Part shown: piece by piece, positions 3,317 to 20,888 of the stretch | How the letters are laid out: the number at the start of each line of letters is the position of its first letter | How positions within the stretch are numbered: position 1 is the first letter of the stretch | Source: Acidimicrobiia bacterium | Lineage (GTDB): Bacteria > Actinomycetota > Acidimicrobiia > IMCC26256 > PALSA-555 | Direction of reading: 5' to 3' | DNA length: 64,000 nt | Assembly (NCBI GenBank): GCA_040881685.1 | Contig: JBBECS010000002.1 | Location: 33,415 to 97,414 of the forward strand | Notes under the pieces: model-generated | Seen by the model: only the letters and a program-made list of their open reading frames with translations | Told to the model about the DNA's origin: nothing | The model's database searches: none | Made by a program: the position numbers and the translations under genes

Positions 3317-4005
3317 GCACCATCCTCGCCACCGCGCCACGGCGGAGTTCTCGGCAGGTCGAAGTCGACGGGGCGTTGTTCGCCTTCGATCGCGGCAAAC
3401 GCCGTCTCGACCCAACGGGCGCCGCCCGCGAGTGGCCACGGCAGCGCGTCGCGCGCGAAGAATCCAACGTCCCGGGTCTCGAGCGGGTGGCCTTCCAGCG
3501 TGCCGCCGAGCACGCGGCAGTGAAAGACGAGCGAGTACAGGGGCAGGCGCGCGAAGCCGAGGCGGAGACCGTCGAACACCGCGATGAGTGACACCGGCTC
3601 CACCTCGATGCCGGTCTCCTCGTACACCTCTTTGATGGCTACTTCCGACGGCGAGTATCCGACGTCGGCCCAACCCACCGGGTAGAGCCAAACACCCGAG
3701 TCAGCGCGCTGGGTGAGCAGGATCTCGTTGTTGTCGTTGCCAACCACTGCGGCGACGGCGACCTTCGGCGTCACGTACCCAGCGACGCCTTCGCCGACGG
3801 TCGCAAGCCATTCCTCGAACAGCGCGTCGGCCTCGGCCTCCTCGAGCGCGGCCGACCGGATGTCGGCGGCGACCTTGAGCACCTCCTCGAAGCGCTCCTT
3901 CTCGTAGAGGCTCTGCGTGAAGCCCAGTCCCGTGCGGGCGATCCCGGCCAAGGACTCGGCCCAGCGCAACAGATCGATAGCCGAGATTTGGTGCTCGTCA
4001 CTCAT
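3313..4005 (-). CDS. Nudix hydrolase with N-terminal helical domain
   Basis: A 230-residue protein. The first 60 or so residues form a helical region (SAIDLLRWAESLAGIARTGL) of the kind found ahead of Nudix domains that act on nucleoside diphosphate sugars such as ADP-ribose. The Nudix core follows: VGWADVG, then KEVYEETGIEV, which keeps the metal-binding glutamates of the REuxEExGu part. The first Glu of the box (Gx5E) is Tyr here (GWADVGY), and the Gly before GW is Val. It is likely a pyrophosphohydrolase; the substrate cannot be read from sequence. The start at 4005 lies about 20 bases upstream of the glnD stop on the same strand. Confidence 0.85.
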   Translation of the reverse strand: MSDEHQISAIDLLRWAESLAGIARTGLGFTQSLYEKERFEEVLKVAADIRSAALEEAEADALFEEWLATVGEGVAGYVTPKVAVAAVVGNDNNEILLTQRADSGVWLYPVGWADVGYSPSEVAIKEVYEETGIEVEPVSLIAVFDGLRLGFARLPLYSLVFHCRVLGGTLEGHPLETRDVGFFARDALPWPLAGGARWVETAFAAIEGEQRPVDFDLPRTPPWRGGEDGA

Positions 4006-4026
4006 CGTGCCCGACCCTATCGAGCG

Positions 4027-6417
4027 TCAGGCGATGAGAGAGTCGGCGGTAAGCCGCGCCACGATGGTGGCCCGTAGGCGATCGAGCGCGAGTGGCTCGG
4101 TGAGCTTCGCCCCCTGCGCGTCCTGCACGTAGAAGACGTCAACGACGCGATCACCGAGCGTGGACACGAGCGCGGCGTTCACGTCGATCTCCAAGTCGGC
4201 GAACACCGCGGCGAGCCGGGCGAGCAGGCCCACGTCGTCGGGAGCGTGGACCTCGCACACCGTCGCGGCGCTCGAAGCATCGAGATCGAAGCTGACGCGT
4301 ACTGCCTCGTCGCGGATCTGTTCTCGTCGGTATCGGCGGATGCGCTCATCGAGCCTGCGGCGCACCGGGAGCGTCCCCGCGATCGCCGCCGCCACATCGG
4401 CCTCGATCGCGTTTCGTCCCTCAGCATCCAGACGCCCGAAGGTGTCGACGCCTCGGTAGACCTCGAGCGCCATGCCTGACTCGTCGCCGTAGGCGGACGC
4501 GCCGCGGATGTCGAAGCCGTGCAGGGCGAGCACCGCAGTCACGGTCGCGAGGAGCCCGGTGCGGTCCGGCGCGACGACGGTGCACTCCACGAGGCCGTCG
4601 TCACGGTCGTCCCAGGTGACCGCGAGCTGCTTGCGCGCGAGCGCATCCCGGTGACTTTCGAGCGCGGCGATCCGCTCGTCGCTGAGGCCGGGACCGACCA
4701 CACCGCGTTCGAGCAGCGCATCGGCCTCGAGGAAGAGCTGGCGCACCAACGCGGCCTTCCCGGTGCTCCACGCGGCCGGCCCGGTGGCACGCGAATCGCC
4801 CACGGTCAACGCGTAGAGCAGGTCGAGGCGCTCGGTGTCGCGCACGGCGCGACCGAAGCGCACGATCGTCTTCTCCTCGGCCAGGTCGCGCCGCGTCGCG
4901 GTGTCAGCCAGGAGCAAGTGGTTGCGCACGAGCCACTCGACGACATCGACGCCGTGCGGGTCGAGCCCCATGCGCTCGGTGATCTCACGGGCCGCCCGCG
5001 CACCCGTGACCGAGTGATCGTCGCCCGTGATCCCCTTCCCGATGTCGTGCAGCAGGGCACCGAGCAGCAACAGGTCGGGCCGGGAGCGCCGCGCCGCGTC
5101 ACCGTCGAAGCCACGCTCCTCCATAAGGCCGGCACACTCCGCTACGCACTCGAGCAGGTGCCGGTCGACGGTGAACCGGTGGTACGCATTTCGCTGCGGA
5201 CGTGCCTGCACGCACGACCACTCCGGAACGAGCGCGACGAGCGCACCCACCTGGTCGAGCGCCTCCACCACCGGGATCGCCGCGTGCCCAGTGCGGAAGA
5301 GCGCGATGAGCTCGGCGCGTGCGTCGTCGTCCCATGTCGTCGCATCGAGAGCGCGCAACCGTTCGAGTGAAGCTCGTTCGAGGGGCAGCATGAGACGAGC
5401 CGCGGTCGCCGCGAGACGCAGACACGTGGCCGGGGTGACGCTGGCGTCGGGCGACAGTCCGAGCACTCCTTCATGCGCCTCGATCCCGACCGCGAGCGCA
5501 CGGTGTCGGAGCAGACGCCGTCGCGGTTTGCGCAGTCGACGCCACACCTCGCTGGTCACCCAGGTGACAGCACGGCTCGCGGCAGCCAGATCGCGTACGA
5601 GGGCGTCGGCGTCGGAGACCCCCAGAGCGCGGGCAACCGCGTCCTGCTCCTGGAGGCTCAGCACGTCGGACCGGCCGCTGGTGACGCGGTGCAGCTCGAC
5701 GCGCGCGTCGAGGAGCCGCTCGCGGGCGGCATCGAGCATCGCGGGGTCACTGGACTGGAGGAAGCCGCCGCTGACCAGCGCATCCACTCCGCCGGGCTCA
5801 CCGAGGGTCCACCCCGCCCACGTGAGCGCCTGGAGGTCGCGCAAGCCGCCGGCACCTTCCTTGAGGTTGGGCTCGAGCATCTCCGCGATCGGTCCAGGGC
5901 GATCGTGGCGCGCCTCCGCGGCATCGGCGAGCTTCGCGATCACCGACGTACATCGCTTGCGAGCCAGCTCTCGGGCGCGTTGCACGACCTCGCGGGCGAG
6001 GTCGTGGTCGCCGTGAACGATGCGGAGGTCGAGCAGGCCAGTCAGCGTGTCGACATCGTCGCGAGCGAGTACGAGCGCCTCTTTCGGCGTGCGCAGCGCG
6101 TGCCCGAGCACGAACCCCGCGTCCCACAGCGGGTACCACAGCGCTTCGGCCGCCGCGGCTGCGAGCCTGCCGCGCGCGGTGCCGTCGTGAACGAGCATGA
6201 GGTCGACGTCGGAGCCTGGACACAGCTCGCGTCGCGCGTACGAGCCGAGAGCAACGACAGCCCAGCGGCCGGGAAGATCGACGTCCGTTGCCGCCCCACG
6301 ACAGGCCTCGTCGATGGATTCGGCCAGCGAGCGCCCGAACGCGCTGCCGCGCAGACCCGGGTCAGCTACGGCCCGGGTCTGCGCGTCACGCAGCGCAACG
6401 CTCCTCTTCCCGCTCAT
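4027..6417 (-). CDS. glnD: PII uridylyltransferase / uridylyl-removing enzyme
   Basis: About 796 residues. The nucleotidyltransferase motif GSYARRELCPGSDVDLML lies near residue 58. An HD phosphohydrolase domain (LLLGALLHDIGKG) lies in the middle and two ACT domains at the C-terminus (VVAPDRTGLLATV and VHAPDDVGLLARL). It modifies the T-loop tyrosine of PII according to glutamine level. I place the start at the ATG at 6417 (MSGKRSVALRD). The frame stays open upstream to 6504, but that extension is encoded by repeat A and has no family match. It follows amt and glnK on the same strand, and the 87-base gap to glnK is filled by the repeat. Confidence 0.93.
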   Translation of the reverse strand: MSGKRSVALRDAQTRAVADPGLRGSAFGRSLAESIDEACRGAATDVDLPGRWAVVALGSYARRELCPGSDVDLMLVHDGTARGRLAAAAAEALWYPLWDAGFVLGHALRTPKEALVLARDDVDTLTGLLDLRIVHGDHDLAREVVQRARELARKRCTSVIAKLADAAEARHDRPGPIAEMLEPNLKEGAGGLRDLQALTWAGWTLGEPGGVDALVSGGFLQSSDPAMLDAARERLLDARVELHRVTSGRSDVLSLQEQDAVARALGVSDADALVRDLAAASRAVTWVTSEVWRRLRKPRRRLLRHRALAVGIEAHEGVLGLSPDASVTPATCLRLAATAARLMLPLERASLERLRALDATTWDDDARAELIALFRTGHAAIPVVEALDQVGALVALVPEWSCVQARPQRNAYHRFTVDRHLLECVAECAGLMEERGFDGDAARRSRPDLLLLGALLHDIGKGITGDDHSVTGARAAREITERMGLDPHGVDVVEWLVRNHLLLADTATRRDLAEEKTIVRFGRAVRDTERLDLLYALTVGDSRATGPAAWSTGKAALVRQLFLEADALLERGVVGPGLSDERIAALESHRDALARKQLAVTWDDRDDGLVECTVVAPDRTGLLATVTAVLALHGFDIRGASAYGDESGMALEVYRGVDTFGRLDAEGRNAIEADVAAAIAGTLPVRRRLDERIRRYRREQIRDEAVRVSFDLDASSAATVCEVHAPDDVGLLARLAAVFADLEIDVNAALVSTLGDRVVDVFYVQDAQGAKLTEPLALDRLRATIVARLTADSLIA

Positions 6418-13705: not shown

Positions 13706-15340
13706 TCAACGATCGAGGCGGTCCATACGACGGATGGTCACGAGCCAGGTGAGCAGAGCGGACAGAGCCACCAGCACGAGCGCCGTCAGCCCCGCCCGGG
13801 CCAGGAGGCCGCTTTCGGACGCGCTCCAGATCCGGGTTGCGAGGGTCTCGAAGCCGGTCGGCGCGAGCAGCAACGTCGCCGGGAGCTCCTTCATCGTCGC
13901 GAGCAGCACCAGCCCGGCACCGGCCGCCAACCCAGGAGCGATGAGCGGCAGCTCGATCGTGCGCAGCCGCCGCCAACGTCCCGCGCCGAGTGCGCGCGCG
14001 GCGTCCTCGACGCGCCGCGGGAGCCCGCTGACCGCGACCTGCGAGGCGCGCATCGCTTGCGCTCCGAAGTGCACGACGTACGCGAACACCAGCAGCGGGA
14101 AGCTCTGGTACAGCGCGCTGACGACCGGGGTACCGAGCACCCAGAACACCAGGGCAAGCGCGATCACCAGGCCCGGCAGCGCGAACCCACCGACGACGAG
14201 CATGTTCACCACGCCGCCGACGCGCGATCGGTGCCGGACCGTCAGGTACGCAAGCGGGAGCACGCAGAACGTAGCGACGAGTGCGGTGACGGTCGACACG
14301 CCCACGGTGTTGAGCACGGGCTCGAGCAGATCTGCGGCATCACCGGTGCCGCCAAAGCGCGTGCCGTCGCCGCGGGCCGCCCACTCTGCGAGCACGGCGA
14401 CCGGCGCCACGAGCGCCACCATCAGCACCATGCCAACCCCGCAGAGCGTCGGAACGCGCCACCGCCCGAGGAACGCCTGGTGCGCGCGTCGCCCTGCGCC
14501 CACGGCCTCGATCGGCGCGCGCCGGCGTGCAAGCGCACGTTCGGCCAGCACGACGGCGAGCGCCACGACCGCGAGCAGCAAGCTCAGCGTGATCGAGGTT
14601 TCGCGGTCGAACAGGCGAGTTGCCTCGATACGAAGCGTGAGGGTGTCGTAGCGAACCAACGACACGGCGCCGAACTCGCTGACGCAGTACAGGAACGTGA
14701 GCAGCGAGCCGGCGGCGACTGCTCCCGTCGTCTGCGGGAGCACGACGGTGCGGAACACCTCGGCGGGCGTGCGGCCGAGCGAGCGAGCGGTCTCCTCGAG
14801 TGCGGGCGGGAGCACCGCCAGACGCGCCGCGACCGGCAGGTACACGTACGGGTAGCTCAGCAGCGTAAGCACGCCGAACGCGGCCCAGAACCCCTCGATG
14901 CGCGGCGGGACGCCGAAGTCGAGGAGCCTGTCGACGAGCCCACCGCGCGCGAAGGCGGCCTGAAGGGCGAAGGCGCCGACGAAGGACGGGATCACGAGGG
15001 GCAGCACCAGCAGCACTCTCAGGACGCGCCGGCCCGGAAGGTCGGTGCGGACGACGAGCCAGGCCAGGCTCGTGCCGAGCACCGCGCACGCGGCCGACAC
15101 GGACGCGGCGAGGAGCAAGGTTCGCAACAGCGGCCCGGCCGCGTCGTCCGACGCGAGCACATCGAGCGCGCCGCTCCCGAACCCGACCGTCCGGATCGCG
15201 AGGTAGAGCAGCGGCCCGGCGAAGAGCCCCGCCACGATCGCGCCCGCGGCGACCAGGGACCGCGGAGCGCGCGGCACTCGGCCCCCGGACGCGAGCGGCG
15301 CCGGCACCGAGGGGGTCGATGCCGGCGCCGTCGTGGTCAT
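13706..15340 (-). CDS. fbpB: Ferric-iron ABC transporter permease (FbpB-like)
   Basis: About 544 residues with roughly twelve membrane segments in two fused permease halves, as in FbpB/SfuB iron permeases. The EAA-type loops are visible in each half (ETARSLGRTPAEVFRTVVLP and DAARALGAGRWRRLRTIELP). I choose the ATG at 15340 (MTTTAPASTPS), four bases after the stop of the binding-protein gene. A longer frame to 15436 would overlap that gene. It forms the membrane channel of the transporter with the ATPase and binding protein upstream. Confidence 0.9.
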   Translation of the reverse strand: MTTTAPASTPSVPAPLASGGRVPRAPRSLVAAGAIVAGLFAGPLLYLAIRTVGFGSGALDVLASDDAAGPLLRTLLLAASVSAACAVLGTSLAWLVVRTDLPGRRVLRVLLVLPLVIPSFVGAFALQAAFARGGLVDRLLDFGVPPRIEGFWAAFGVLTLLSYPYVYLPVAARLAVLPPALEETARSLGRTPAEVFRTVVLPQTTGAVAAGSLLTFLYCVSEFGAVSLVRYDTLTLRIEATRLFDRETSITLSLLLAVVALAVVLAERALARRRAPIEAVGAGRRAHQAFLGRWRVPTLCGVGMVLMVALVAPVAVLAEWAARGDGTRFGGTGDAADLLEPVLNTVGVSTVTALVATFCVLPLAYLTVRHRSRVGGVVNMLVVGGFALPGLVIALALVFWVLGTPVVSALYQSFPLLVFAYVVHFGAQAMRASQVAVSGLPRRVEDAARALGAGRWRRLRTIELPLIAPGLAAGAGLVLLATMKELPATLLLAPTGFETLATRIWSASESGLLARAGLTALVLVALSALLTWLVTIRRMDRLDR

Positions 15341-15344
15341 GAGG

Positions 15345-16373
15345 TCATGCTTGCTCGAGTCCGCTCTCCGCGATGAGCTCGCGGGTGCGGAGCAAACCGC
15401 CGCCGAGCGTGCTGAGGTCGAGCTGCGGCGCATCAACCTTCGAGAGTGGCGGCAGGTCGCCCAAGGCCTTCACACCCCGCGCCAGCGGGTACTCGAACTC
15501 GTCTTCGGCCAGGTGGGTCTGGGCCGCCTTTGAGAGCAGGTACCGCACGAATCTCTCGGCCAGCTTCCGGTCGTCGGTCTGGTCGATGACCGCCGCCGCC
15601 GTCACGAGGATCACCGAACCGACGTCCTCGTTCGCGAACACGTGGTTCTCGACCGGGGTGGACGGGTCGGCAGCCTTCGCGAGCGCGGCGTAGTAGTGGT
15701 TCACGAGCCCCATGGGGACCTCGCCGCGGCCGACCGCCTCGACGATCGCCGAGTTGCTCGCGTACGCGCGGGCGCCGTTGGCCTCCATGCCCGCGAGCCA
15801 CTTCTTGGTGCGCTTCTCACCCTCGAGCTCGCGCATCGCAGTCACGAAGTCCTGAAACGAGCCGTTCGTCGGGGCCACGGCCACCTGGTCCTCGTACTTC
15901 GGCTTCGTGAGGGCGAAGACCGAGTCAGGGAGATCGCCGCGCTTCACAAGGTCCGTGTTGTAGACGAGCACCCGCACTCGGCCGGAGACGCCGGTCCATC
16001 GACCGTCGGCGGCGTGGTAGCGCGGGTCCACGAGGTCGAGGACGTCCTGGTCGATCTTGCGGAGGCGGTCGATCCCGTCGAGGTACCCGGTGGCGCCGGG
16101 GCTCTGCGAGATGAAGACGTCGGCGGGGGTCTGGTCGCCCTCCTCGTCGATGAGCAGCGCCAGGTCGGCCGAATCGCCGTACCGGACCTCGATCTCGACG
16201 CCGGTGTCGGCCGAGAACTCGTCGAGCAGGGGTTGGATCAGCTCCGAGGTGCGCCCGGAGTACACGGTCAGGGTCCCACCGGTGCCCGCCGAGGCGGGGC
16301 CTACGGCAGCCACGAGCGTCGCAACTGCGAGGACCAGGGTCAGGGCGATGAGGCGCATGCGTCGGTTGGTCAT
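15345..16373 (-). CDS. fbpA: Ferric-iron-binding periplasmic-type protein
   Basis: A 342-residue type II solute-binding protein with a clear signal peptide (MTNRRMRLIALTLVLAVATL, cleavage probably after GPASAG). The mature part begins LTVYSGRTSELIQPLLDEF, typical of FbpA/FutA. The paired tyrosines that bind Fe3+ are present in NHYYAALA near residue 225. There is no lipobox, so it may be released or held by the transporter. A DtxR-like box lies about 30 bases before the start, so this gene may have its own iron-regulated promoter inside the fbpC-fbpA-fbpB run. Confidence 0.92.
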   Translation of the reverse strand: MTNRRMRLIALTLVLAVATLVAAVGPASAGTGGTLTVYSGRTSELIQPLLDEFSADTGVEIEVRYGDSADLALLIDEEGDQTPADVFISQSPGATGYLDGIDRLRKIDQDVLDLVDPRYHAADGRWTGVSGRVRVLVYNTDLVKRGDLPDSVFALTKPKYEDQVAVAPTNGSFQDFVTAMRELEGEKRTKKWLAGMEANGARAYASNSAIVEAVGRGEVPMGLVNHYYAALAKAADPSTPVENHVFANEDVGSVILVTAAAVIDQTDDRKLAERFVRYLLSKAAQTHLAEDEFEYPLARGVKALGDLPPLSKVDAPQLDLSTLGGGLLRTRELIAESGLEQA

Positions 16374-16401
16374 GAAGGTGAGTCTGCCCTAACCGGTTAG
16401 A

Positions 16402-16420
16402 TCAGGTCAACCTCACCTAA
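16402..16420. promoter_or_regulatory. DtxR/IdeR-like box before fbpA
   Basis: TCAGGTCAACCTCACCTAA read on the other strand matches about 15 of 19 positions of the IdeR consensus TTAGGTTAGGCTAACCTAA. It overlaps the last codons of fbpC. A separate perfect palindrome CTAACCGGTTAG lies beside it at 16389-16400 and could be a second half-site. Confidence 0.65.
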
Positions 16421-17474
16421 CCATCCCCGGCGTCGGCGGAGGCGCTGCTGGGAACGCCAGCACGTCGCCGATGACCGAGACGCTCACCCGATCCCCGAGC
16501 TCGAACGCACGGCCCGGGCCCATGCGGGACCGGACGCCGGTGCCGTCCACCAGCTCGACGGCCACAAGCTGGTCGTGGCCGAAGTAGACGATGTCGCGTA
16601 CGACGCCCTCGCCCGCGCTGTCGAGACGGAGGCGCACGCACTCGGGCCGCACCACGACCTCGACGGCGCCGGTCCCGCCCGTCTCGGCAAGCGGGAGCCG
16701 GCCGAGCGCGGTGACGGCCGACTCCCGATCGGCGTGGCCTGGGATCACGTCGGCGTCGCCGACGAAGGTGGCGACGAACCGGTCCTGTGGATGGGCGTAG
16801 AGCGCCGACGGCGCATCGACCTGGAGCACGCGGCCTTCGTTCATCACGGCGATCCGATCGGCGATGCTCAGCGCCTCCTCTTGATCATGTGTGACCACGA
16901 CCGCGGTTGCCCGCGCTTCGCGCAGGATCTGCCGCACCTCGTCACGCACCTGGGCGCGCAGCGATGCGTCGAGATCCGAGAAGGGCTCGTCGAGCAGCAC
17001 GAGGCTCGGCTCCGGCGCGAGCGCGCGCGCCAACGCAACTCGTTGCTGCTGGCCGCCCGACAGCTCGTGCGGAAGCCGATCTGCCGTCGCCGCGAGGCCG
17101 ACGAGGTCGAGCATCTCAGCGACGCGGCGGCTTCGCGTGTCGCGGCTGCGGACGCCGTAGCCGATGTTCTGCGCCACATTGAGGTGCGGGAAGAGCGCAT
17201 AGTCCTGGAACACGACCCCGACGCGGCGTCGCTCGGGGGCGACGAACACGGCATCGCCAGCGACCTGCGTCCCGTCGAGGCGGATCGTGCCGGCGTCGGG
17301 GCGTTCGAAGCCGGCGACCAAGCGCAGCGTGGTGGTCTTGCCGCACCCGCTGGGCCCGAGCAGCGCGAGGACTTCCCCTGCGAACACGTCGAGGTCGACA
17401 TCATCGACGGCGACCACAACGTCGAACGACTTCCGGAGGCCTCGGCTCTCCACCACGGCCGAACCTGGGCTCAC
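16413..17474 (-). CDS. fbpC: Ferric-iron ABC transporter ATPase
   Basis: 353 residues. Walker A is GPSGCGKTT, the Q-loop VVFQDYALFPHLNV, the signature LSGGQQQRVALARAL, Walker B LVLLDEPFSDLD and the switch His lies in VVTHDQEEAL. A C-terminal TOBE region of about 110 residues follows, as in FbpC/PotA-type ATPases. It drives iron uptake through FbpB. The GTG start at 17474 faces the DtxR-family gene, with only 23 bases between that hold a DtxR-like box. Confidence 0.93.
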   Translation of the reverse strand: MSPGSAVVESRGLRKSFDVVVAVDDVDLDVFAGEVLALLGPSGCGKTTTLRLVAGFERPDAGTIRLDGTQVAGDAVFVAPERRRVGVVFQDYALFPHLNVAQNIGYGVRSRDTRSRRVAEMLDLVGLAATADRLPHELSGGQQQRVALARALAPEPSLVLLDEPFSDLDASLRAQVRDEVRQILREARATAVVVTHDQEEALSIADRIAVMNEGRVLQVDAPSALYAHPQDRFVATFVGDADVIPGHADRESAVTALGRLPLAETGGTGAVEVVVRPECVRLRLDSAGEGVVRDIVYFGHDQLVAVELVDGTGVRSRMGPGRAFELGDRVSVSVIGDVLAFPAAPPPTPGMVR

Positions 17475-17478
17475 AAGG

Positions 17479-17497
17479 TCAGGGTATCCTCACCTGA
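17479..17497. promoter_or_regulatory. DtxR-like box between fbpC and its regulator
   Basis: TCAGGGTATCCTCACCTGA matches about 13 of 19 positions of the IdeR/DtxR consensus and fills the whole gap between the two divergent start codons. The metalloregulator would control both the transporter and itself. Confidence 0.6.
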
Positions 17498-18157
17498 ATG
17501 GCCGAGATGCACGACACCACCGAGGAGTACCTCGAGCACATCATCGAGCTCGAGGAAGAGGGCGTCACGCCACTGCGCGCTCGGCTGGTCGAGCGCCTCG
17601 GCCTCTCGGCTGCCTCGGTGTCGGAAACGGTCGGGCGTCTGGTCGACAACGGCTTCGTCGAGATGCACGACGACCGCAGCCTGGGGCTCACGGGCAAGGG
17701 CCGAACGCTCGCCACGACGGTGGTTCGGCGTCACCGCCTGGCCGAGCGACTCCTGCTCGACGTGATCGGCCTCGAATGGGAGAAGGTGCACCGCGAGGCC
17801 GACCGCTGGGAGCACGCCATCTCGGCCGACGTCGAGCAGAAGCTCGTCGAGCTCCTCGGCGATCCGATGACTTGCCCACATGGCAACCCGATCCCCGGCT
17901 CGCAGCGCACGGCGCCGACGACCCCGACGGTGGTGCTGGCCGAGGCCAATCCGGGACCGGTCACGGTGGCTCGCATCTCAGAGAAGCTCGAGCTCTCGGA
18001 CGACAGCCTCCGCCTGCTCGCCCGCACCCGGATGATCCCGGGAGCGGCAGCCACAGTGGTGGGCCGCGGACCCGAAGGAGTCACGGTTCGGACACGGGCG
18101 GGCGACCACCAGATCCCGCGCGCCGTTGCCGAACAGGTCTACGTCTACGCCGCCTGA
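17498..18157 (+). CDS. DtxR-family metal-dependent repressor with an altered metal site
   Basis: 219 residues that align without gaps to DtxR through residue 110: a winged helix (DTTEEYLEHIIELEEEGVTP, SAASVSETVGRL), a dimerisation domain and a C-terminal SH3-like domain. His79, Glu83, His98, Glu105 and His106 are all in place. Two selectivity positions differ: residue 10 is Glu (Met in DtxR) and residue 102 is Asp (Cys in DtxR/IdeR). The manganese sensor MntR has acidic residues at these same positions (Asp8, Glu99). The box between this gene and fbpC supports iron-transport control, but the metal sensed could be Mn2+ as well as Fe2+. Confidence 0.9.
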   Translation: MAEMHDTTEEYLEHIIELEEEGVTPLRARLVERLGLSAASVSETVGRLVDNGFVEMHDDRSLGLTGKGRTLATTVVRRHRLAERLLLDVIGLEWEKVHREADRWEHAISADVEQKLVELLGDPMTCPHGNPIPGSQRTAPTTPTVVLAEANPGPVTVARISEKLELSDDSLRLLARTRMIPGAAATVVGRGPEGVTVRTRAGDHQIPRAVAEQVYVYAA

Positions 18158-18163
18158 CCTCGG

Positions 18164-18439
18164 TCAGCCCCCGGCGACTGCGGGGACGATGCTGATGGTC
18201 TGACCGTCGGTGACGGGCGTGTCGACCCCGCTGAGGAACCGGATGTCGTCCTCGGCGAGGAACACGTTCACGAAACGACGCAGGTTGCCCAACTCGTCGT
18301 AGAGGCGCTCGGCGAAGCCCGGGTGTGCGGTGTCGAGTGCCTTGAGGGCCTCGGCGACCGTGGCACCTTCGACGGTCACCTCCGACGCACCGCCACTCAA
18401 GGTGCGCAGCTGGGTGGGGATCCGCACCGCGACGGCCAT
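18164..18439 (-). CDS. cysO: CysO-like sulfur carrier (MoaD/ThiS family)
   Basis: 91 residues of ubiquitin-like fold. The C-terminus SIVPAVAGG ends in the Gly-Gly that is adenylated and turned into a thiocarboxylate. The middle (LRRFVNVFLAEDDIRFLSG) and the VAGG end are closer to mycobacterial CysO than to MoaD or ThiS. CysO gives sulfur to the PLP enzyme CysM in cysteine synthesis. Here the partner gene, 58 bases upstream on the same strand, is a threonine-synthase-family PLP enzyme. AAGGAGG lies 5 bases before the ATG. No Mec-type peptidase or MoeB-like activator is in the window. Confidence 0.85.
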   Translation of the reverse strand: MAVAVRIPTQLRTLSGGASEVTVEGATVAEALKALDTAHPGFAERLYDELGNLRRFVNVFLAEDDIRFLSGVDTPVTDGQTISIVPAVAGG

Positions 18440-18497
18440 CAGTCCTCCTTCATGAGTCGTTCGGCTCGCGCCGCGGGCTTCGCCATTGTGCTGCGCC

Positions 18498-19736
18498 TCA
18501 CTCCTTCTCCGAGTCGGGGAATGCTTCGTAGAACGCGTCGAGCGTGGGCTTGATGGTCGCGCTCACGCCAGCGTGGGGTGCAACCGCGTCGAGCGTCTTG
18601 AGCCCGTGTCCGGTGACGTACACGACGACTCGCTCGTCGGGCCGAACCACTCCCTCCTCAGCGAGGCGCTTGAGCGACGCAATCGTCACGCCGGCTGCGG
18701 TCTCACCGAAGATGCCCTCGGTGCGGGCAAGGAGCCGCATCCCCTCGACGATCTCGTCGTCGGTGACCGCGGCGAACCCGCCGCCCGTCTCGCGGACCGC
18801 GTCGAGCGTGTAGTAGCCGTCAGCCGGATTCCCGATCGCGATCGACTTGGCGATCGTGCTCGGCCGCACCGGGGTGATCGTGTCGCTCTCATCGGCGAAG
18901 GCTTGCGCAACCGGTGAGCACCCTGTGGCCTGCGCGCCCGACACGCGCACCTCGGGCGGCGCGTCGAGCAAGCCCACCTTGTGCAGCTCGTCGAAGCCCT
19001 TCCGGATCTTCGTGAGCAGCGATCCGCTCCCCACCGGGACGACCACGTGATCAGGGGCCTCCCAGCCGAGCTGCTCGACCGTCTCGAACGCCAACGTCTT
19101 GGAACCCTCCGAATAGAACGGTCGCATGTTCACGTTCGCGAACGCCCACGGTCGCTCCGACGCGAGCTCGACGCACAGTCGATTCACATCGTCGTAGTTG
19201 CCGTCGATCGCGACGACCGTGCCGCCGTACACCGCGGTCGTGAGGATCTTCGCCGCTTCGAGATCTGCCGGGATGAACACGACGCTGCGCAGCCCGGCTC
19301 TCGCGGCATGTGCTGCTACCGCGTTGGCGAGGTTGCCCGTTGACGCGCACGCAAGCGTCTTCATGCCGAAGTCGAGCGCCTTCGCAAGGGCAATGGCCAC
19401 GACACGGTCCTTGAACGCGTTCGTGGGGTTGCGGGTGTCGTCCTTCACCCACACCTCCCCGAGACCGAGCTCCGCAGCAAGGCGGTCGGCGCGCAACAGC
19501 GGCGTCCACCCGACCGGAAGCGTGGACTCGCCGGGCGGGTCGACCGGCAGCAGCGGCGCGTAGCGCCAGATCGTCTCGGGGCCGGCGGCGATGTTCTCGC
19601 GGCTGATCTCGGCCTGGATGCCGTCGTAGTCGTACGCAACCTCGAGGGGGCCGAAGCACCACTCGCAGGTGTAGATCGGGGCGATGTCGTAGGTGCGGCC
19701 GCACTCTCGACACCTCAGGGATTGCACGTGGGTCAC
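18498..19736 (-). CDS. thrC: Threonine-synthase-family PLP enzyme behind a SAM riboswitch
   Basis: About 412 residues of fold-type II PLP enzyme. An N-terminal zinc-ribbon-like part (CRECG and CEWCF) precedes the catalytic domain. The PLP Lys is in NPTNAFKDR, and the phosphate-binding Gly-rich loop is VPVGSGSLLTKI. The family turns O-phosphohomoserine into threonine. The GTG at 19736 is chosen because AGGAGG lies six bases upstream; a longer open frame would run through the riboswitch. A SAM-I riboswitch in the leader and a CysO-like gene downstream do not suit plain threonine synthesis. They raise the possibility that it makes homocysteine from O-phosphohomoserine, which I infer and have not shown. 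Confidence 0.85.
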   Translation of the reverse strand: MTHVQSLRCRECGRTYDIAPIYTCEWCFGPLEVAYDYDGIQAEISRENIAAGPETIWRYAPLLPVDPPGESTLPVGWTPLLRADRLAAELGLGEVWVKDDTRNPTNAFKDRVVAIALAKALDFGMKTLACASTGNLANAVAAHAARAGLRSVVFIPADLEAAKILTTAVYGGTVVAIDGNYDDVNRLCVELASERPWAFANVNMRPFYSEGSKTLAFETVEQLGWEAPDHVVVPVGSGSLLTKIRKGFDELHKVGLLDAPPEVRVSGAQATGCSPVAQAFADESDTITPVRPSTIAKSIAIGNPADGYYTLDAVRETGGGFAAVTDDEIVEGMRLLARTEGIFGETAAGVTIASLKRLAEEGVVRPDERVVVYVTGHGLKTLDAVAPHAGVSATIKPTLDAFYEAFPDSEKE

Positions 19737-19817
19737 GGTCGCCCTCCTGGTCTGGCGCTCTCCTGCGCTTCCTCGACGCGCTCCGAGCGCCTCGAGCGGA
19801 GGACCGCTCTTGGCTGA

Positions 19818-19932
19818 CTCATCGTTCAGGCATCTTGCCTGGCAGGCATTGGCACCTGGCTCCCGGGGTATCAACCTCGGATGCTGGTTGCCGCGGCGTC
19901 TACGGGCCTGTCCCTCGGCCGCTCTCGATGAG
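19818..19932 (-). ncRNA. SAM-I (S-box) riboswitch upstream of thrC
   Basis: On the minus strand the region has the S-box core. P1 is CTCATCG pairing with CGATGAG. GAGGGACAGGCCC is followed by GCGGCAACC, and GGTGCCAATGCCTGCC is followed by a GGCAAGATGCC hairpin. The order and conserved bases match the SAM-I aptamer. Between it and the gene, GGTCCTCC could pair with the ribosome binding site CCAGGAGGG, so control is probably at translation start. SAM binding should lower expression of the downstream gene pair. Confidence 0.85.
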
Positions 19933-19982
19933 CGCGTGCTGTGAGAGACGATAGCCGGGGCCCCCTCTAGGCTTCCAGCCCG

Positions 19983-20888
19983 ATGACGGCTCTGAACCCC
20001 GCGGCTTTGGCCGAGATCAAGGCCACCCAGCACACCAGGATCTCGGTGTGCCTTCCGGCGCGTGACGAAGAGGCGACCGTCGGTCACATCGTGGCCACCG
20101 TTCGCCGAAACCTCGTGGAGCGGGTCCCTCTGGTGGACGAGATCGTGGTGGTGGACGACGGCTCGAAGGATGCCACCGCCGAGGCGGCACGCTGGGAGGG
20201 CGCGACGGTGCATGCGGCGGCCGACATCCTGCCCGACGCCGGCCCCGGCTTTGGCAAGGGCAACGCCCTGTGGTTGTCGCTCTTCGCTGCGACCGGCGAC
20301 CTGATCTGCTGGGTCGACGCCGACGTCCGCAACTTCCGCGCCGACTTCGTGACGAGACTCGTCGAGCCACTGCTGGTCGAGCCCGATGTCGGCTTCGTCA
20401 AGGGCTACTACCGCCGGCCGCTCTTCGGACGACCGACGGGTGGCGGGCGCGTGACCGAGCTCGTGGCTCGACCGCTGCTCTCGTCACTCTTCCCGCAGCT
20501 GACGCACATCGTGCAGCCACTCGGTGGTGAGTACGCAGGGCGACGGTCTCTGCTCGAGACCGTGCCCTTCGTCGAGGGTTACGGCGTGGAGCTCGGATTG
20601 CTGATCGACATCGCGACATCGTTCGGCGTCGGAACGATCCGACAGGCAGACCTCGGAGTCCGTGAGCACCGCAATCGCCCTATCGAGGAGCTCGCACCCA
20701 TGGCGATGGAGGTCATGCTCACCGCGCTCCGCCGCGCGGGTGTGAACCGCGGTGACGTGCCCGCGACACTCGTGCGCTTCGACGAGAACCACGAAAGGAC
20801 GCTCCTGCCCGTCGAAGCACGCGAGCGCCCCCCGATCATCAGCATTCCCGCCTACCGAACGAAGCTCGGCCGCGAGCTGACGGCCTGA
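19983..20888 (+). CDS. gpgS: Glucosyl-3-phosphoglycerate synthase
   Basis: A 301-residue GT81 glycosyltransferase that joins glucose from a nucleotide sugar to 3-phosphoglycerate, the first step to glucosylglycerate and, in mycobacteria, methylglucose lipopolysaccharides. The nucleotide-binding start SVCLPARDEEATVG, the acidic VVVDDGSKDATAE, the GFGKGNALWLSL loop and the DxD-like metal site CWVDADVRNF are all present. LGGEYAGRRSLLETVPFVEGYGVE is the family's acceptor-side block. It lies near glycerate kinase and trehalose genes. No phosphatase (GpgP) is in the window. Confidence 0.9.
   Translation: MTALNPAALAEIKATQHTRISVCLPARDEEATVGHIVATVRRNLVERVPLVDEIVVVDDGSKDATAEAARWEGATVHAAADILPDAGPGFGKGNALWLSLFAATGDLICWVDADVRNFRADFVTRLVEPLLVEPDVGFVKGYYRRPLFGRPTGGGRVTELVARPLLSSLFPQLTHIVQPLGGEYAGRRSLLETVPFVEGYGVELGLLIDIATSFGVGTIRQADLGVREHRNRPIEELAPMAMEVMLTALRRAGVNRGDVPATLVRFDENHERTLLPVEARERPPIISIPAYRTKLGRELTA

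Follow-up and report, generated by a model that had tools for sequence, protein, structure and literature searches.

A DtxR-family repressor with a carboxylate-rich metal site beside fbpCAB in an Acidimicrobiia bacterium: a probable iron-responsive regulator outside the Met10/Cys102 IdeR clade

Introduction

In the DtxR family, the occurrence of Met10/Cys102, as against Asp/Glu, is a common guide to whether a protein senses iron or manganese, and this guide derives from residue swaps in B. subtilis MntR and in DtxR. Based on the established DtxR/IdeR structures, we take Glu172 and Gln175 of IdeR (Glu170 and Gln173 of DtxR) to be donors to the ancillary site. IdeR is selective for its metal only to the extent that the cell requires, and it can be activated by Mn2+ in vitro (PMC10317159); in S. 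erythraea two IdeR dimers sit on opposite faces of the 19-bp box. In streptococcal MtsR/SloR, the ligands of site 1 are His76, Glu80, Cys123 and His125 (PMC9253540). Of the engineered proteins, nickel complexes of DtxR C102D are present in the PDB, one of which (1f5t) includes operator DNA, and a DtxR C102D construct with Co2+ binds the operator at about 5.5 nM (PMC13379313).

The window described here, i.e. the whole stretch of 64,000 nucleotides that was analysed, comes from an Acidimicrobiia bacterium (contig JBBECS010000002.1) of the GTDB order IMCC26256 (the host order), and a literature search found no paper on the regulator of this order. The features of the locus that are of interest are listed in Table 1.

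Table 1. Genes, predicted operators and codons of candidate metal ligands at the dtxR-fbp locus of the window
Feature	Position	Strand	Remarks
fbpB, double ABC permease	13706..15436	-	Pfam BPD_transp_1, two stretches
fbpA, ferric-iron-binding periplasmic protein	15345..16373	-	NHYY motif; PDB matches
Weaker box near fbpA	16374-16392	-	2 mismatches
5-bp-shifted copy of the TCAGGTCAACCTCACCTAA box	16397-16415	-	2 mismatches
Operator TCAGGTCAACCTCACCTAA	16402..16420	+	1 mismatch; between fbpC and fbpA
fbpC, ABC transporter ATPase with TOBE domain	16413..17474	-	Pfam ABC_tran, TOBE_2; divergent from dtxR
Second box TGAGGATACCCTGACCTTG	17474..17492	-	1 mismatch; 5-bp shift, overlaps the first box; covers fbpC start
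IdeR-type operator TCAGGGTATCCTCACCTGA	17479..17497	+	0 mismatches to TNAGGNTANNCTNACCTNA; between divergent dtxR and fbpC
dtxR-like gene	17498..18157	+	219 aa; HTH and dimerisation domains, SH3/FeoA-like domain at the C-terminus
Glu10 codon	17525..17527	+	Met10 in IdeR/DtxR; Asp8 in B. subtilis MntR
Glu13 codon	17534..17536	+	By alignment equivalent to MntR Glu11 (A-site Mn ligand); IdeR has Arg13
Asp102 codon	17801..17803	+	Cys102 in IdeR/DtxR; Glu99 in MntR
Cys126-Pro-His128 codons (in TCPHGNPIPG)	17873..17881	+	Aligned with Cys123/His125 of MtsR/SloR site 1
Glu162 and Glu165 codons, SH3-like domain	17981..17992	+	Align with IdeR Glu172/Gln175 (DtxR Glu170/Gln173)

Results

The repressor and its candidate metal ligands

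The ORF, which the sequence-only reading had placed on a DtxR scaffold, is real, and by its domain matches the encoded protein is a member of the DtxR/MntR family. It contains both Fe_dep_repr_C (PF02742; 107.3 bits against a cut-off of 27, E 3.8e-31) and Fe_dep_repress (PF01325; 54.4 bits against a cut-off of 26, E 1.4e-14), it aligns with M. tuberculosis IdeR without gaps over residues 1-134, and its C-terminal domain matches FeoA at 21.1 bits, slightly below the 23-bit cut-off. The AlphaFold2 model (mean pLDDT 93.3, pTM 0.86) has its closest PDB fold in S. erythraea IdeR, which it matches over the full length with a TM-score of 0.88. The top-scoring NCBIfam model for this protein is that of the iron-dependent repressor DtxR (NF053665), although the score of 213.2 bits lies below the cut-off of 290. 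No other PF02742 (DtxR-family) protein is encoded in the genome (3.1 Mb, rated 100% complete). Repressors that are 66-76% identical to that of the window are also found on three public MAG contigs titled Bifidobacterium breve (L132, L137 and L155); these proteins fit the window's class, and the titles look wrong.

The repressor resembles the IdeR/DtxR proteins (M. tuberculosis 1fx7, S. erythraea 7b20, C. diphtheriae) in its fold and three-domain layout, in most of the DNA-contact residues, in the type of 19-bp box and the iron-uptake targets, and in the presence of H79/E83/H98/E105/H106 and an equivalent of the SH3-domain Glu172. However, it differs from them in having E10, E13, D102, C126, H128 and E165 in place of M10, R13, C102, S126, F/Y128 and Q175 (Ser126 and Phe or Tyr128 being the residues of actinomycete IdeR). 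The alignment thus bears out the earlier observation that His79, Glu83, His98, Glu105 and His106 are retained and that positions 10 and 102 are acidic. Glu13, Cys126/His128 and both of the SH3-domain carboxylates were overlooked at that time, and they matter for the interpretation. Of the ancillary-site positions, H79, E83, H98 and Glu162 are present, and the position of the Gln in IdeR is taken by Glu165; H79/E83/C126/H128 correspond by alignment to site 1 of MtsR/SloR; and fitting residues are found for D8/E11/H77/E99/E102/H103 of B. subtilis MntR. The protein would therefore bring together candidate ligands for three arrangements, viz. the DtxR ancillary site, SloR/MtsR site 1 and the MntR binuclear site. 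As Cys126 is a candidate thiol ligand, the site of this repressor is not sulfur-free.

Each of the other resemblances is likewise accompanied by differences. An acid at position 10 is shared with SloR, and E105 and H106 are as in SloR site 2, but SloR has Lys13 and Glu102, its DNA targets differ, and the fold match is at 25-26% identity. B. subtilis MntR is without an SH3 domain. The M. tuberculosis MntR (5zr4) and D. radiodurans DR2539-like (8pvt) proteins belong to the DtxR family and have acids at positions 10 and 102, whereas in the combination D10/K13/E102/D126 they are unlike the repressor. Asp102 is also found in DtxR(C102D) and DtxR(M10A C102D) (PDB 1f5t, 2qqb), which, unlike the repressor, are engineered and lack both Glu10/Glu13 and Cys126/His128. 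However, since DtxR C102D takes up metal and binds the operator, as seen in its structures and in the Co2+ binding, the presence of Asp102 by itself leaves metal-activated DNA binding possible.

The conservation of these residues was determined in 90 orthologues from the class, 39 from the host order and 51 from the rest of the class. E10 occurs in 83 of the 90 (36/39 in the order, 47/51 elsewhere) and E13 in 81 (37/39 and 44/51, respectively); in all 38 Met10-type proteins position 13 is R or K. H79, E83, H98, E105, C126 and H128 are each found in all 90 orthologues, H106 is absent from one, and the positions of Glu162 and Glu165 are both E in 39/39 orthologues from the order. In contrast to E10, which is held, residue 102 varies: in the class it is G in 34, D in 33, A in 11, C in 8 and E in 4, with D 28, A 10 and C 1 in the host order and G 34, C 7, D 5, E 4 and A 1 in the rest of the class. 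Glu10 is thus widespread, and its interpretation as a lone variant is ruled out. However, the acidic residues that the sequence-only reading had emphasised do not hold together as a pair in this comparison; as judged from the orthologues, Glu10 is a trait of the lineage and the pair is not, and the variation of residue 102 removes the weight that was placed on Asp102.

The fbp locus and its operators

The best PDB matches of FbpA are ferric-iron-binding proteins (7w3w, E 4e-66; 4elo, E 5e-56), and the NCBIfam model for a ferric ABC ATPase is among the matches of FbpC, for which no model scores above its cut-off. The pattern TNAGGNTANNCTNACCTNA occurs six times in the window, where 0.12 occurrences would be expected, and none of 100 shuffles reached this number. 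All six are located at fbpA and in the 23 bp that separate fbpC from dtxR, which agrees with the earlier assignment of the boxes and neighbouring genes to iron control. The last base of the box at 17479-17497 directly precedes the dtxR start codon, and both main boxes are overlapped by a second box at a 5-bp shift. The residues R27, A28, R29, S37, S42 and R60, which contact DNA in IdeR, are invariant in the host order and R47 is present in 38/39 proteins. From the box sequences at 17479-17497 and 16402-16420, the repressor is predicted to recognise TTAGGTTAGSCTAACCTAA-type boxes. In the rest of the host genome no box rises above the reversed-pattern control, and the matches outside the locus (C15, C28 and C36) were dropped, as they do not exceed the level of this control. 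With its boxes confined to one locus, the predicted regulon in this genome is narrower than that of actinomycete IdeR. On the other side dtxR adjoins genes for a ThiS/MoaD-like and a threonine-synthase-like product (18164-20213, minus strand), and this pair is linked in most members of the order, even where dtxR lies elsewhere.

Targets of the boxes in the host order and the genome context

The boxes were surveyed in 46 genomes of the order, with the exclusion of matches lying inside genes (L253, L261). The fbpC-dtxR arrangement along with its box is present in at least 14 species, and a box is found in the equivalent place in L005-L010 and in further members of the order. The boxes are located in front of genes for ferric-type binding proteins and an ABC ATPase (fbpC/dtxR included), a siderophore-type binding protein, FTR1 proteins in 4 species and ZIP transporters in 6-7 species. 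FTR1 is a family of iron permeases. ZIP-family genes immediately follow IdeR-type boxes in L244, L256, L263, L268, L269, L270 and L271, of which L270 and L271 are called ZIP solely by their sequence likeness to L269. As targets, the ZIP genes are ambiguous with respect to the metal, and their placement suggests that ZIP serves as an iron importer in the host order. Near 30 Nramp matches in the order no box was found. Further, the operators and target classes are alike in Ala102 and Asp102 species, the Ala102 genomes (G099, G124, G084, G048, G080, G106, G147, G003 and G109) having boxes at fbp, ZIP or FTR1 genes. In L248 and L258 boxes occur near an uncharacterised ORF of which the two copies are alike in sequence; the ORF in L248 is followed by a bacterioferritin-like gene on the opposite strand.

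Neither an Nramp gene nor a ZnuA/MntA-type binding protein is present in the host genome, and a manganese regulon was rejected on this ground and on that of the 30 box-free Nramp matches of the order. In both respects the repressor is unlike SloR/ScaR/MtsR, which control sloABC/mtsABC and mntH. Two Fur homologues are present; one of them is PerR-like and lies beside rubrerythrin, and the second (L003) may be a Fur-type iron sensor.

Phylogeny and origin of the metal site

A maximum-likelihood tree was constructed for 108 proteins after omitting columns 10, 13, 102, 126 and 128. In this tree the host order forms one clade (100/96), which is the sister (bootstrap 99, SH-aLRT 87) of a clade (100/93) consisting of all of the Met10/Cys102 proteins and L177. 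The repressor therefore falls outside the Met10/Cys102 IdeR clade, and by its residues, the NCBIfam cut-off and the tree it appears to be a protein that works like IdeR yet is not a member of that clade. A single clade of all Acidimicrobiia proteins was rejected (p-AU 0.012). The MntR-type proteins (5zr4, 8pvt and L102, the order's own relative of these, which adjoins an Nramp gene) form a separate group. A second, divergent DtxR-family protein occurs in L164-L173 (the genomes of family f4 and G118 of the order); it has E10/K13, Asp98 replacing His98, and T/A/Q102, and its nearest structure is M. tuberculosis MntR.

With the exception of MntR, the groups outside both clades have mostly E10/E13, C126/H128 and a variable residue 102. 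Due to this placement of the E10/E13 groups, the tree is most simply read as indicating that the acid-rich site is ancestral and the Met10/Cys102 site arose later. L177 (from G639; 3402-4052, minus strand), which branches at the base of the IdeR clade and has Q10/L13/C102/C126/H128, looks like a candidate intermediate between the acidic and the sulfur-containing primary sites. As a testable proposal, E10/E13 and C126/H128 would have been present first, followed by Cys102 together with E10 or Q10, as in the outgroups and L177; M10/R13 would have appeared next, and Cys126/His128 would have been lost afterwards in the actinomycetes.

Discussion

The most probable interpretation, to which we assign a probability of roughly 0.6, is that the protein responds to iron, represses ferric uptake as well as its own gene, and has a metal site of a pre-IdeR type. 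Metal-loaded dimers, with Fe(II) as the effector, would sit on the 19-bp boxes as in IdeR and shut off both the divergent fbpCAB and the repressor's own gene, and upon a drop in iron the repressor would leave the DNA. Its putative ligand set would be the older, carboxylate-rich one (E10, E13, H79, E83, H98, residue 102, E105, H106, C126, H128, E162 and E165), with the Met10/Cys102 site of IdeR being a later arrival. Targets that are iron transporters point to iron as the effector without proving it. This interpretation is favoured because the above-chance boxes of the genome are all at dtxR/fbpC and at fbpA, whose product matches ferric-binding structures; because the boxes of the order are in front of iron-uptake classes and never at the Nramp genes that were checked; because the genome, which is devoid of Nramp and ZnuA/MntA-type genes, has this protein as its sole DtxR-family member and one of its Fur homologues is PerR-like; and because Ala102 and Asp102 species have the same target classes. 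Its IdeR-like character is indicated by the position as sister to the Met10/Cys102 clade and by the conserved DNA-contact residues. As aligned, the ligand set has more in common with the manganese sensors SloR and MntR than with IdeR, and this counts against the iron interpretation, as do the restriction of the boxes to one locus in this genome and the second Fur homologue, which may itself be a Fur-type iron sensor.

It is possible, though in our view rather unlikely, that Fe2+ and Mn2+ are both physiological co-repressors and ferric uptake is tuned to either of them. A carboxylate-rich primary site combined with Cys126/His128, similar to the streptococcal manganese sensors, would suit such a dual response, which is documented for the DtxR-family members D. 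radiodurans DR2539 and T. denticola TroR, and the genome has no separate MntR. However, DR2539 controls mntH, whereas in the host order the boxes front iron genes and none of the Nramp genes checked, and there is no Nramp or ZnuA-type manganese importer in this genome under the control of the repressor. The earlier proposal that the acidic pair marks a manganese or dual sensor is left unsupported, because residue 102 drifts (D/A/G/C/E) with the operators and the iron-uptake target classes unchanged. Some response to manganese in vitro would nonetheless be unsurprising, as IdeR itself can be activated by Mn2+ under such conditions.

A pure manganese sensor, which would repress ferric uptake at high manganese through an MntR-like binuclear site (E10/E13/H79/D102/E105/H106), is a distinctly more unlikely explanation. 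The binuclear site of B. subtilis MntR has six positions, each of which is occupied by a suitable residue here, but at position 102, where MntR has its bridging ligand, 45 of the 90 class orthologues have Gly or Ala, and in the order the box types and target classes are the same despite the changes at this position; further, the MntR lookalikes (M. tuberculosis 5zr4, L102) are of the D10/K13/E102/D126 type and form the separate clade noted above. That the IdeR sulfur ligands were lost recently by drift in one lineage is hardly credible, for although the sequence and fold are close to those of IdeR, Glu10/Glu13 is common to the whole class and to the outgroups of the IdeR clade, and the order lies outside the Met10 clade in the tree.

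For the iron-responsive repressor proposed here, the two-residue rule for telling iron from manganese sensors would fail, as manganese-type residues stand beside an iron-type operator and regulon, with residue 102 drifting freely. We also suggest, at slightly less than an even chance, that iron sensing by a carboxylate-rich "manganese" site is a property of the entire lineage that is sister to IdeR, in which the ligands of three site types are retained. If this is true, then the sulfur-containing site of IdeR is a later refinement and not the basis of iron sensing.
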